Shown here: positions 15,418 through 19,303 of the stretch, piece after piece
Numbering within the stretch: the first letter of the stretch is position 1
Layout of the letters: each line of letters begins with the position of its first letter
Origin: Clostridiaceae bacterium
GTDB lineage: Bacteria; Bacillota; Clostridia; DSM-8532
Reading direction: 5' to 3'
DNA length: 56,778 nucleotides
Assembly (NCBI GenBank): GCA_012521615.1
Contig: JAAYMA010000100.1
Location: 1-56,778 of the forward strand
Program-made: the position numbers and the translations under genes
The notes under the pieces: model-generated
Seen by the model: only the letters and a program-made list of their open reading frames with translations
What the model was told of the DNA's origin: nothing
Database searches by the model: none

Positions 15418-17076
15418 TTATATTTTGCTGTCCCGTGCACGTATTTCAGTACGGCGTATTTTGCCGCTTATTGTTTTCGGAAGTTCATCAACAAACTCGA
15501 CCACCCGGGGGTATTTGTACGGAGCAGTGTGAGTTTTGACATAGTTCTGAATTTCAACCTTCAATTCCTCCGAAGGCTCATATCCTTTTGCAAGAACAAT
15601 AGTAGCCTTAACTACATTGCCCCGAATTGGGTCGGGAACACCCGTAACTGCACATTCCAATACCGACGGATGTTCCATAATGACACTTTCAACTTCAAAA
15701 GGTCCTATGCGGTATCCTGAGGACTTTATAATATCGTCGGTTCTACCCACGTACCAAAAATAGCCGTCCTCATCCCTCCAGGCCGTATCGCCGGTGTGGT
15801 ACAAGCCATTATGCATGACCTGGCCGGTTCTTTCTTCATCCCGGTAGTATCCAATCATAAGCCCGACAGGTTTTTCGCCATCCAGGCGAAGAACTATTTC
15901 ACCTGTCTGACCGGGTTCCACACTGTTCCCTTCTTCATCCACCAAATCAACATTATATGCAGGGGAAGGCCTGCCCATGGAACCAGGTTTGGGTCTCATC
16001 CATTTGGCAGTAAACAGTGTCAAAGTAGTCTCTGTCTGTCCGAACCCCTCCATCAGCTCAATTCCGGTCATTTCCTTAAACTTGTTGAATACTTCAGGAT
16101 TAAGTGCCTCACCTGCCGTGGTACAATATTTTAAAGAAGACAGATTGTATTTCGACAGGTCTTCTTTTATAAGGAAACGGTAAATTGTAGGTGGTGCACA
16201 TAAAGTGGTCACCTTATATTTTTCGATACGCTTTAATAATTTATCAGAATCGAATCTGTCAAAATCATAGGTGAATACCGCAGCTCCCGCAAACCATTGG
16301 CCATAGAGTTTTCCCCATACAGCTTTGGCCCATCCCGTCTCGGCAACAGTTAAATGAAGCCCGTCAGGATCTGCATTATGCCAGTATACAGCAGTTACAA
16401 TATGGGCTAAAGTATAGTAATGATTATGAGCCACCATTTTGGGCATTCCGGTAGTTCCGGATGAAAAATACAACACCATCATATCTTCAGCTTTAGGTCC
16501 GGCTTCCCCTTTTGGCCTCTCAAATTCAGGAGCATTTTTTAAACCCTCTTCAAAGCTGAGCCATCCATCCCTGGTCTTTCTTATCATAATCTTTATTGAC
16601 AGGGTTTCAGTTTCTTTCTGGGCTTCATCCACAAAATCGGCAATTTCTCCATCGGGAGTACATATAACTGCCTTAATGCTCGCGGCCTTGATTCTGTATA
16701 CCAAATCATTTGTCAAAAGCTGATTGGTTACAGGTATAGCCACTGCACCTATTTTATGAAGTGCCATCATGCAGTACCACCATTCATAGTGGCGTTTTAG
16801 AATAAGCATTACCGCATCACCTTTTTTGATGCCAAGGCTCATAAAATAGGCGGCAGCTTTGTCACTGTATATTTTCATATCGGAGAAAGTAATGAATTTT
16901 TCATCACCCTGGTCATTGCACCATACCATTGCCAGCTTATCGGGATTATCCCTTGCAATTCTGTCCACCACATCATAAGCGAAATTGAAGTATTCATCTT
17001 TCTTGTAATCTATTTTTACAACTTCTCCCCTGTCGTTTAAGGTTTCAACGATAAATTCTTTATAAAGTGCTGACAT
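15418..17076 (-). CDS. AMP-forming acyl-CoA synthetase (AcsM / medium or branched-chain type)
   Basis: A 552-residue ANL-superfamily ligase that would activate a carboxylic acid with ATP and CoA. Visible are the P-loop LYFSSGTTGMPKMVAH, the motif EGFGQTETT, YHTGDTAW, the hinge GRTDDIIKSSGYRIGPFEVES and the C-terminal catalytic lysine motif PKTISGKIRR. It resembles AcsM-like synthetases acting on medium-chain, branched or aromatic acids rather than acetate-specific Acs (shorter, about 550 against 650). The ATG at 17076 overlaps the regulator stop codon in TGATG and has GGGAGG 8-9 bases upstream. It is thus translationally coupled and under the T-box. Its substrate is unknown; a branched-chain acid is inferred from the isoleucine specifier. 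Confidence 0.88.
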   Translation of the reverse strand: MSALYKEFIVETLNDRGEVVKIDYKKDEYFNFAYDVVDRIARDNPDKLAMVWCNDQGDEKFITFSDMKIYSDKAAAYFMSLGIKKGDAVMLILKRHYEWWYCMMALHKIGAVAIPVTNQLLTNDLVYRIKAASIKAVICTPDGEIADFVDEAQKETETLSIKIMIRKTRDGWLSFEEGLKNAPEFERPKGEAGPKAEDMMVLYFSSGTTGMPKMVAHNHYYTLAHIVTAVYWHNADPDGLHLTVAETGWAKAVWGKLYGQWFAGAAVFTYDFDRFDSDKLLKRIEKYKVTTLCAPPTIYRFLIKEDLSKYNLSSLKYCTTAGEALNPEVFNKFKEMTGIELMEGFGQTETTLTLFTAKWMRPKPGSMGRPSPAYNVDLVDEEGNSVEPGQTGEIVLRLDGEKPVGLMIGYYRDEERTGQVMHNGLYHTGDTAWRDEDGYFWYVGRTDDIIKSSGYRIGPFEVESVIMEHPSVLECAVTGVPDPIRGNVVKATIVLAKGYEPSEELKVEIQNYVKTHTAPYKYPRVVEFVDELPKTISGKIRRTEIRARDSKI

Positions 17077-17660
17077 CAGCCCATCCTCCCGTTTTGATCC
17101 TTTATTACCACAGCCAGAAACAGACAAGGCTTACCGTTTGCAGCAGTCATGCCATGCCTGTGTGTTGCATCGTAATATACAGAATCGCCTTCGTTCAATA
17201 TAAATTCATGATCATCAATTTTCATTCTGAGTGAGCCCTGGAGAACATAGTCAAATTCCTGACCGGAATGGCTTCTTTGTAATATCCCCTCTTGTTCGGC
17301 AGCTTCATCGTAGGGTGCCTCCACAAGAAAAGGTTCTGCATTTCTGTTTTTGAAAAGATAAGCCAGGCTTTGATAATTAAAGCCTTTTCTTCTCTCGATT
17401 TTCAATCCTTTACCTTTCTTTACGCGTGTAAATACCGATAATTTAGGGCTTGTGCCTGTAATAAGTTCACTGATATCCACGCCCAATTTCGCTGCAACTT
17501 TATACAGGAAAGTAAAAGAAAAATCCTGTGTTCCTGTCTCATACAGCTCATACTCTTTTTCACTGATTTCCAGAAGCTCGGCCATTTCGGTGACTGAAAT
17601 GTCAAGATCAATTCTCAAACCCCGTATCCGTTCAGCAATTTCCTTAATCTTATCTCCCAT
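17076..17660 (-). CDS. XRE-family regulator with C-terminal cupin domain
   Basis: A 194-residue protein. Residues about 8-62 form an XRE helix-turn-helix (IRGLRIDLDISVTEMAELLEISEKEYELYETG). A linker is followed by a cupin_2 domain (about 115-190) with the patterns HSGQEFDYVLQGSLRM and GDSVYYDATHRHGMTA, which usually bind a metal and a small ligand. Such proteins sense a metabolite of the linked pathway. The ATG at 17660 is chosen because GGAGGG is 6 bases upstream; a longer frame would run into the T-box terminator. It is the first gene after the T-box and overlaps the acyl-CoA synthetase start. It may bind the inverted repeat around the shared promoter region. Confidence 0.88.
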   Translation of the reverse strand: MGDKIKEIAERIRGLRIDLDISVTEMAELLEISEKEYELYETGTQDFSFTFLYKVAAKLGVDISELITGTSPKLSVFTRVKKGKGLKIERRKGFNYQSLAYLFKNRNAEPFLVEAPYDEAAEQEGILQRSHSGQEFDYVLQGSLRMKIDDHEFILNEGDSVYYDATHRHGMTAANGKPCLFLAVVIKDQNGRMG

Positions 17661-17690
17661 TAAAAACCCTCCAGTCCCTTTCGGTATATT

Positions 17691-17990
17691 AAAAAAAGCC
17701 CGTCTCAACAACAAATGTTGTTGGGACGAGCTTATCACCCGTGGTACCACCCATCTTCGGCTAAAGTTTGCAGCCCTCTTTTCAGGTTCAGCTAAACCCC
17801 AGCCTGTAACGCGGCATACGCATTATCCTACTGAAAGTTTCAGATAATGAACTCCGGAATGATACCTGTGAAAACTTATTCTGTCTGCTTGCACCAGCCG
17901 CAGACTCTCTGCATGAATAAACTGCCTTCACAGACGTTCCTTCATTGTCTGTATAAATATGTATAGACATGAATAAATTTTAAATCCGAT
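17691..17990 (-). ncRNA. T-box riboswitch, predicted isoleucine (ATC specifier)
   Basis: A tRNA-sensing leader read leftward. Stem I shows the typical distal part AGAGAGT...GGCTGGTGCAAGC. The base pairs AATGAA/TTCATT and CTGTGAA/TTCACAG enclose a specifier loop reading GTATCAT, with ATC (Ile) at 17863-17861. The conserved T-box GATGGGTGGTACCACGGG is at 17755-17738; its TGGT bulge would pair with a tRNA ending ACCA, consistent with an A discriminator as in tRNA-Ile. A strong terminator follows (17732-17697) with a T-run at 17696-17691. The frame-shifted reading TAT (Tyr) is possible but fits loop position less well. Confidence 0.9.
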
Positions 17991-18044
17991 GTCTTAATAA
18001 TAACTATAAAATTCATTCATGTCAATAAAAAATTATGGTATAAT
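17966..18044. promoter_or_regulatory. Divergent promoters with shared inverted repeat
   Basis: Leftward, the T-box promoter has TTGACA (18020-18025), a 17-base spacer and TATTAT (17997-18002). Rightward, the transporter promoter has an extended -10 TGGTATAAT (TATAAT at 18039-18044) with a weak -35 near 18016-18021, overlapping the other -35. A 16-base inverted repeat, GACATGAATAAATTTT (17966-17981) and AAAATTCATTCATGTC (18008-18023, one mismatch), brackets the T-box start site. It is a good candidate operator for the XRE-cupin protein. Confidence 0.6.
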
Positions 18045-18070: not shown

Positions 18071-19303
18071 ATGAATATGGATGTTAGTATGAAAAAGCCA
18101 GTCAGATGGCATTTCCTGCTCATTGGGTCACTCAGTATGCTATTTTCCGGAATCATTTATGCCTGGTCAATTTTGAAAACTCCTTTCTCAACTGAATTCG
18201 GATGGACAGCATCTCAGCTTGCTCTTAATTTTACCCTTATAATGTGCTTTTTCTGCATTGGCGGAATGGCGGCAGGAATGCTTATAAAAAAAACTTCGCC
18301 TAAAACTATAGTTATATTCTCTGCACTTTTTACCTGTTTTGGATTTATACTGGTCTCTGTAATGTCGGGCCGGAGTATTTTTACACTCTACTTATCCTAT
18401 GGGCTTTTATGCGGTTTTGGTATTGGAATGGCATATAATGTGATAATTGCTACCGTGAATTCATGGTTCCCCGACAAAAAAGGTACTTGTTCAGGTATTC
18501 TTATGATGAGCTTTGGAGCAAGTACATTAATTCTTGGAAATATTGCATCACATATGTTCAAGGCTGATAATATCGGCTGGAGAAATACATATATGGTTTT
18601 GGGGATTGCAACTGGTATAATACTTTTATTTGCTGCCTTATTTCTCAAATTTCCCCCTGATACCGTTCAGCTGCCCAGAGCTTCGTTGAATAAAAAGTCA
18701 AATACCCGTGAGGATTTTGAAAGCAGGGACTACACCACTTCCGAGATGATCAGGCGATTTACTTTCTGGAGATTTTTTCTTTTCCTTGTAACTTTGGCTG
18801 CCACCGGCAGTACCGTTATAAGTTTTGCCAGGGATCTTGCCATAAATATAGGAGCGACAGAAACTCTGGCCATAACACTTGTAGGCGTGTTGTCGGTATT
18901 TAACGGGCTTGGAAGAATAATCTGCGGGGTATTGTTTGATTTAGCCGGAAGAAAAAAAGCCATGCTTTTTGCAAATATAGTGACTATATCCGCCCCAACG
19001 ATTCTGTTGATTTCCTTATTGACCAGTTCGGTAGTTACAGGAATACTGGGTTTTTGTCTGGTTGGCATCTCATACGGTTGCGCGCCAACCATAAGTTCAG
19101 CTTTCATAGGTTCTTTTTATGGAACCAAATATTTTTCATTGAATTTCAGCATAGCAAATACCATGTTAATTCCGGCTTCTTTTACAGCCACCCTTGCAGG
19201 AGCCTTAATAACGGGTACAGGTTCATACATCGCTCCCATAATATTACTCATAGCTCTGGCAATAATGTCACTGTTACTGAATTTGAGTATCAAACGCCCG
19301 TAA
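18071..19303 (+). CDS. MFS transporter, oxalate/formate antiporter (OFA) family
   Basis: A 410-residue membrane protein with twelve hydrophobic segments. The N-terminus FSGIIYAWSILKTPFSTEFGWTASQ is typical of the OFA family of carboxylate carriers. The inter-helix motif GRIICGVLFDLAGRKKAM (about 280-297) is the MFS loop signature. It is transcribed divergently from the T-box operon, with overlapping promoters, so it may bring in the acid that the acyl-CoA synthetase activates; this is inference. GAGGGAG lies 3 bases before the ATG at 18071 and 9 bases before the ATG at 18077, so the latter may be the true start. Confidence 0.85.
   Translation: MNMDVSMKKPVRWHFLLIGSLSMLFSGIIYAWSILKTPFSTEFGWTASQLALNFTLIMCFFCIGGMAAGMLIKKTSPKTIVIFSALFTCFGFILVSVMSGRSIFTLYLSYGLLCGFGIGMAYNVIIATVNSWFPDKKGTCSGILMMSFGASTLILGNIASHMFKADNIGWRNTYMVLGIATGIILLFAALFLKFPPDTVQLPRASLNKKSNTREDFESRDYTTSEMIRRFTFWRFFLFLVTLAATGSTVISFARDLAINIGATETLAITLVGVLSVFNGLGRIICGVLFDLAGRKKAMLFANIVTISAPTILLISLLTSSVVTGILGFCLVGISYGCAPTISSAFIGSFYGTKYFSLNFSIANTMLIPASFTATLAGALITGTGSYIAPIILLIALAIMSLLLNLSIKRP

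Follow-up and report, generated by a model that had tools for sequence, protein, structure and literature searches.

An isoleucine T-box ahead of XRE-cupin and acyl-CoA synthetase genes suggests tRNA-controlled salvage of 2-methylbutyrate in Clostridia

Why would a riboswitch that senses uncharged tRNA-Ile stand ahead of a gene for an acyl-CoA synthetase? The question is raised by contig JAAYMA010000100.1 of a Clostridiaceae bacterium (assembly GCA_012521615.1), of which 56,778 nucleotides were analyzed (the window). On its minus strand, the region from ~18025 to 15418 holds the whole unit: a promoter-like site, a T-box, a terminator, the gene for an XRE-cupin protein (P0002), and the gene for the synthetase (P0001). 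We consider it probable, from comparison with related genomes, that the unit serves isoleucine T-box-controlled salvage of 2-methylbutyrate to isoleucine, with parallel valine, leucine, and phenylalanine units.

An isoleucine T-box and a terminator precede the two genes

The features of the unit are as follows.

15418 to 17076, minus strand: acyl-CoA synthetase P0001, MacsMa type, by profile and PDB sequence matches; 553 residues as translated (552 from the ATG)
17076 to 17660, minus strand: XRE-cupin protein P0002, 194 amino acids, with a helix-turn-helix (HTH) region and a cupin carrying H131, E135, and H169, by Pfam and alignment
17690 to 17732, minus strand: intrinsic terminator, a hairpin at 17732-17697 plus a U run; -21.7 kcal/mol, z -6.44
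17719 to 17954, minus strand: T-box leader RNA (RF00230), by Rfam covariance model at full model length; 110.8 bits against a gathering score of 93, E 1.1e-23
17740 to 17753, minus strand: T-box core GGGTGGTACCACG of the antiterminator, by covariance model match and sequence reading
17861 to 17863, minus strand: specifier codon AUC (isoleucine), by covariance model match and rule-based caller, its position counted on the sequence
17997 to 18025, minus strand: promoter-like site TTGACA-17-TATTAT, 11/12 match; best of 9 scan matches, with 6.9 expected by chance

An isoleucine-type T-box with a strong terminator ahead of the XRE-cupin and synthetase genes, as claimed in a preliminary description of this DNA, was confirmed. 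The covariance model placed the specifier on ATC, and a second, independent rule-based caller also returned ATC. The specifier (17863-17861) is followed on its 3' side by an A, then by TTCC, which pairs with GGAA, and by GGAG, and the T-box core reads GGGTGGTACCACGG in the leader sequence. None of 200 shuffles folded as well as the terminator hairpin, and seven U follow it directly. Stem I folding was moderate only (z -1.95, with 7 of 200 shuffles equally good), and the isolated antiterminator piece folded no better than shuffles (z -0.47), so it is the covariance model and conservation that identify the T-box. With the promoter scan near chance, the promoter-like site and the antiterminator as individual parts rest on their position and conservation. 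The arrangement of T-box, XRE-cupin, and synthetase was found again in relatives. From the mechanism of T-boxes, the unit would be a candidate for induction at low isoleucine.

The synthetase resembles an enzyme that prefers 2-methylbutyrate

The assignment of the genes behind the switch to an XRE-cupin protein and an acyl-CoA synthetase also held, through Pfam matches over cut-off and a relation to MacsMa. The synthetase start overlaps the XRE-cupin stop by one base (TGATG). Among PDB sequences, the top match of P0001 was 3etc at 763 bits, which we take to be MacsMa, the medium-chain acyl-CoA synthetase of Methanosarcina acetivorans; the runner-up reached 403 bits. P0001 retains the aligned Trp259, a Gly in place of the Trp of Acs (the acetate enzyme), and the YHTGD motif, and the Trp and Gly positions were invariant in 56 of 56 rows with an AUC specifier and in 13 of 13 with GUA. 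The preferred acid of MacsMa is 2-methylbutyrate and Trp259 is critical; it adenylates C3 to C8 acids and completed the CoA step with 2-methylbutyrate (PMC10455477).

The top NCBIfam model for P0001 was MbcS (NF047394), at 482.7 bits below its curated cut-off of 850, and among the 25 models listed, no NCBIfam equivalog was matched over its cut-off. MbcS of Staphylococcus aureus salvages 2-methylbutyrate and isobutyrate, feeding fatty acid synthesis (PMC10026030). Given the MacsMa relation and the kept residues, but an MbcS match so far below cut-off, 2-methylbutyrate is graded as the likely substrate of P0001.

The specifier tracks the ligase across relatives

Relatives of P0001 at E <= 1e-120 were present in 152 of the 291 genomes of the class; we refer to this family as Macs. 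Specifiers were called by requiring pairing of the Stem I helix below the specifier; this caller and an alignment-style reading replaced a first regex reading, which was noisy and was rejected. As a control, the caller was applied to the 14 T-boxes of the window's own genome, where 12 calls were above threshold and 8 of these stood before genes whose amino acid could be expected on independent grounds. Seven of the eight were correct, with trpE wrong; ileS gave no call, and proS was called wrongly but under threshold. All three of these specifiers are readable by eye.

In the first round, calls were obtained in 51 of 123 Macs places (47 ATC, 3 GTA, and 1 GAG tie). Places of a Leu-type ligase gave calls in 21 of 40, all CTC (CUC), and PaaK places in 11 of 31, all TTC (UUC), with one duplicate place included in each of these two sets. 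A wider Macs round, to which 20 stretches were added and for which the T-box pattern was relaxed, yielded 71 calls in 145 places: 56 ATC, 13 GTA, 1 GAG, and 1 GGA. Among the carriers of the unit with an AUC specifier is Angelakisella massiliensis (L067). The GAG call (L034) was tied with ATC and was read as ATC by eye, and the GGA call (L214) was spurious. Three further unique by-eye reads were kept out of the counts unless stated. At Macs places of the sister genus, no T-box was found.

We then placed these calls on a tree of 144 Macs proteins, one of the 145 having been dropped as identical and species otherwise not being thinned; L034 was relabeled by hand from GAG to ATC and L214 from GGA to none. 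All 13 GTA rows fell on one side of a branch with SH-aLRT support of 98, together with three uncalled rows, one of which (G186) reads GTA by eye. As the GTA rows form one clade, a single duplication would have switched the specifier from isoleucine to valine, once, fitting 2-methylbutyrate and isobutyrate as the respective acids. A few candidate positions may separate Ile-type from Val-type Macs, such as 106, 251, and 363. On these calls, the predicted specifier tracks the ligase across relatives.

Several further observations concern the same families. A second Macs clade (L226 and L227) has no T-box and coexists with the T-box type in some genomes, for example G272; the XRE domain near it is the stronger HTH_3 match (45.2 versus 35.0 bits). 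In eight class members (L199-L206), one contig carries both a Leu-type and an Ile-type ligase no more than 7 kb from each other; in most, the gap is ~1 kb and the strand is shared. At L126 (3297-6708), a PF01261 TIM-barrel gene and an amidohydrolase come after the Leu-type ligase, and in the relatives L164, L166, L167, L200, and L207 a similar-looking barrel of 258-293 codons is fused ahead of that ligase. At L093 (17302-17537), a further T-box of 118.9 bits, with a specifier region that reads CTC by eye, lies 5 kb past an Ile/Val pair.

Ligases, oxidoreductases, and transaminases occur together in some relatives

The window's own genome has 14 T-box matches, 12 of them over cut-off. Three precede acid-CoA ligases: the Ile T-box with Macs (this unit), a Leu (CTC) T-box with a PRK12583-type ligase, and a Phe (TTC) T-box with PaaK. 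The remaining ones are linked to pheS, valS, ileS, thrS, proS, trpE, a TrpB-like gene, metN, DAHP synthase, an ilv-leu operon, and an ABC binding protein. The genome also carries IorAB followed by a transaminase, as well as a VorB-type operon (565.8 bits, cut-off 399). By these annotations it has every part of a route from acid through acyl-CoA and 2-oxo acid to amino acid, unlinked.

Genes for the ligase, a 2-oxoacid:ferredoxin oxidoreductase, and a transaminase lie together in two relatives, G186 and G008. In G186, an Ile T-box with fused Macs and then a Val T-box with fused Macs are followed by a CbiA-type open reading frame (ORF), vorB, beta, gamma, ilvE, Leu T-box, and a leuA-like gene. 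In G008, an Ile T-box with Macs and then a Val T-box with Macs are followed by an ORF, vorB, two ORFs matching beta and gamma in size, and ilvE. As predicted from gene content, these Macs-Macs-VorBAC-IlvE clusters of two Clostridia make up the whole acid-to-amino-acid route. Looser associations were seen in G041, where Macs lies divergent to vorB, which is grouped with ilvE, a leuA-like gene, and a Leu-type ligase; in G198, where a Leu-type ligase is clustered with ilvE and vorB; and in G102, with Macs plus a partial vorB at a contig end. The other hand-picked genomes had vorB far off or on a separate contig.

This hand-picked set comprised 28 genomes, 26 with a T-box-called Macs and 2 without. 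Both ilvC and ilvD were over cut-off in the same 11, namely those of the window's genus (8), G107, and the two genomes without the T-box. Neither gene was over cut-off in 17 of the 26 T-box-Macs genomes, 11 of which are at least 90% complete; ilvD-like matches in G052 and G053 were under cut-off. VorB was over cut-off in 14 of the 17.

The XRE-cupin protein as a putative partner of the synthetase

P0002 exceeded the Pfam cut-offs for Cupin_2, HTH_19, and HTH_3, and its cupin residues H131, E135, and H169 were invariant across 49 aligned members. The preliminary description had taken it for a ligand-sensing repressor acting as a second layer of control; such a role, with P0002 as an ordinary DNA-binding protein responding to the acid or acyl-CoA, we regard as unlikely. 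The HTH matches speak for DNA binding, but helix 2-3 of the XRE-cupin proteins is acidic, with a mean net charge of -3.56 (range -7 to -1; n=110, counting the window protein twice) against -0.07 (range -1 to 2) in 28 XRE domains of the genus, a control set from which L264 was excluded as adjoining a Macs paralog. Restricted to the recognition helix, the means differ little (-1.86 versus -0.61), with overlapping ranges. A 9-base perfect inverted repeat, GACATGAAT / ATTCATGTC at 17966-17974 and 18015-18023, lies over the window promoter with one arm entering the -35 box, as might suit a repressor, but by eye it is absent from the 10 other promoters printed for the genus, and no shared operator was seen by eye in the 11 printed promoter regions. 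In Foldseek, the best folds were HppE structures (TM-score ~0.5), with a Vibrio cholerae HTH_3 regulator at rank 7; the best PDB sequence matches were likewise of the HppE family. HppE is not known to bind DNA.

In 110 of 114 places (110 loci), the synthetase is directly preceded by an XRE-cupin stretch, fused to it in frame in 61 and separate in 49; of the four places without it, L109 is cut by a contig end. A structure prediction of a fused XRE-cupin/synthetase had a mean pLDDT of 80.7 and a weak linker. On the grounds of this fusion, the one-base overlap, and the loss of a basic helix, we prefer, though with less confidence, the reading of P0002 as a sensor domain or partner of the synthetase over that of an ordinary repressor.

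Neighboring features

A large SRP RNA (RF01854, 196.2 bits) lies at 15352-15088 of the window on the minus strand, 65 bases past the synthetase, and is followed by dnaX; an SRP RNA is also found 3' of the synthetase in L016, L102, L103, and L104. A divergent MFS gene at 18071-19303 on the plus strand has as its best NCBIfam model the SfMCT monocarboxylate/lactate transporter (250.7 bits, cut-off 320). We rejected it as a partner acid importer, as tblastn of 110 loci found it at the window's place only. A neighbor group of 63 loci was also set aside, being antisense shadow ORFs and not a real family.

Salvage to isoleucine and its alternatives

In the proposed explanation, accumulation of uncharged tRNA-Ile would switch on the AMP-forming synthetase through the T-box, and the synthetase would convert free 2-methylbutyrate to 2-methylbutyryl-CoA. 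A VorBAC-type 2-oxoacid:ferredoxin oxidoreductase, possibly IorAB, would then form 3-methyl-2-oxopentanoate by reductive carboxylation, and a transaminase would convert this to isoleucine. The unit would be one of a set in which Val, Leu, and Phe T-boxes drive ligases for, putatively, isobutyrate, isovalerate, and phenylacetate. The sequences themselves show that there is a T-box with this specifier, to which family the ligase belongs, and that specifier and ligase correspond in relatives, some of which also have clustering with Vor and IlvE genes; the substrate of P0001, the direction of flux, and induction in the cell we infer.

The preliminary description had proposed such a salvage. Comparison supports it through the parallel Val, Leu, and Phe switches and the VorBAC/IlvE clusters, but the usual ilv pathway is also kept: the window's genome has a complete ilvB-ilvC-leuA-cimA-leuC-ilvD operon (cimA being citramalate synthase) with its own Ile T-box, so salvage would be optional there, an addition. 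Other observations pull in the same unfavorable direction. The genome's own vor and ior genes are on other contigs and have no T-box over threshold. Among relatives, no T-box was called at 74 of 145 Macs places, and at L058 and L087 of Ruminococcus flavefaciens neither the caller nor cmscan found a T-box. Beyond the XRE-cupin, no neighbor family occurred in more than 10 of 74 loci, antisense shadow ORFs left out. Finally, the related MbcS serves fatty acid synthesis (PMC10026030).

This last point leads to the better of two alternatives for the synthetase, namely that it mainly primes branched fatty acids with 2-methylbutyryl-CoA, isoleucine starvation being a signal of primer shortage. S. aureus MbcS, the best NCBIfam match of P0001, does so with 2-methylbutyrate and isobutyrate (PMC10026030). 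Priming as the main role nevertheless appears improbable, as Macs is clustered with vorBAC and ilvE and the unit is kept in genomes without ilvC and ilvD. PaaK, moreover, occurs in the same arrangement with a Phe T-box, and to our knowledge its product, phenylacetyl-CoA, is not a usual lipid primer. Branched acids may have a double role, in amino acid and in fatty acid synthesis. A little less probable still is a real T-box with another acid as substrate (propionate, isobutyrate, or a longer or aromatic one) and an indirect link to isoleucine: the C3 to C8 range of MacsMa and the lack of an equivalog match over cut-off among the 25 models listed would allow it, but with 2-methylbutyrate MacsMa does complete the CoA step (PMC10455477), the Macs family divides into AUC and GUA groups that fit 2-methylbutyrate and isobutyrate, and separate ligase families pair with Leu and Phe T-boxes.

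Extending salvage from this unit to a tRNA-sensing regulon of Clostridia is more tentative, and we would put it at somewhat short of an even chance. In such a regulon, Ile, Val, Leu, and Phe T-boxes would each drive the matching acid ligase, and acyl-CoA, Vor/Ior, and transaminase would replace or back up the usual pathway; where gut and rumen genomes lack ilvC and ilvD, branched-chain amino acids would come mainly from this route. The fused acidic XRE-cupin would sense a metabolite and tune the synthetase, not bind DNA.

It has been known for a long time that branched acids serve rumen bacteria as growth factors and as precursors of amino acids. One 2020 paper still describes as unproven the reverse conversion of branched short-chain acids to amino acids (PMC7709123). 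Our analysis offers candidate genes for the successive steps, which the tRNA sensor of the cell links to the fitting amino acid, and would supply genes for a rumen pathway known for decades. The substrate of a ligase could be predicted by reading its T-box specifier, and the occurrence of the units in gut and rumen genomes is relevant to the response of fiber degraders to isoacids.

Comparison with known systems

For P0002, the nearest known system is the epoxidase HppE, which likewise combines HTH and cupin and gave both the best fold and the best PDB sequence family; the TM-score is, however, ~0.5 and the identity ~22%, and P0002 has no phosphonate context. MacsMa is by far the best solved relative of P0001, which keeps Trp259, Gly, and the YHTGD motif, but P0001 is bacterial, T-box controlled, and accompanied by an XRE-cupin partner, with an activity predicted from sequence. 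MbcS shares the best NCBIfam model and the salvage of 2-methylbutyrate and isobutyrate; it differs in the sub-cut-off score of P0001 and in supporting fatty acid synthesis (PMC10026030).

The leader is like other T-box riboswitches (RF00230) in its score over gathering, AUC specifier, T-box core, and terminator, but controls an acid-CoA ligase and not a tRNA ligase, a transporter, or a usual biosynthetic gene. The accessible parts of the T-box literature searched named no acid-CoA ligase target, and as two key T-box surveys lay outside that search, the novelty of the link is provisional. Finally, rumen tracer work describes four pairs, isovalerate with leucine, 2-methylbutyrate with isoleucine, isobutyrate with valine, and phenylacetate with phenylalanine (PMC7356843), the 2-methylbutyrate route being also reported elsewhere (PMC2812497). 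These are the same four acid-amino acid pairs as those of the T-box-linked ligases, for which the three substrates beside 2-methylbutyrate are likewise putative. Reductive carboxylation in the rumen was known by tracers, and to it we add candidate genes and a predicted tRNA-sensing control.

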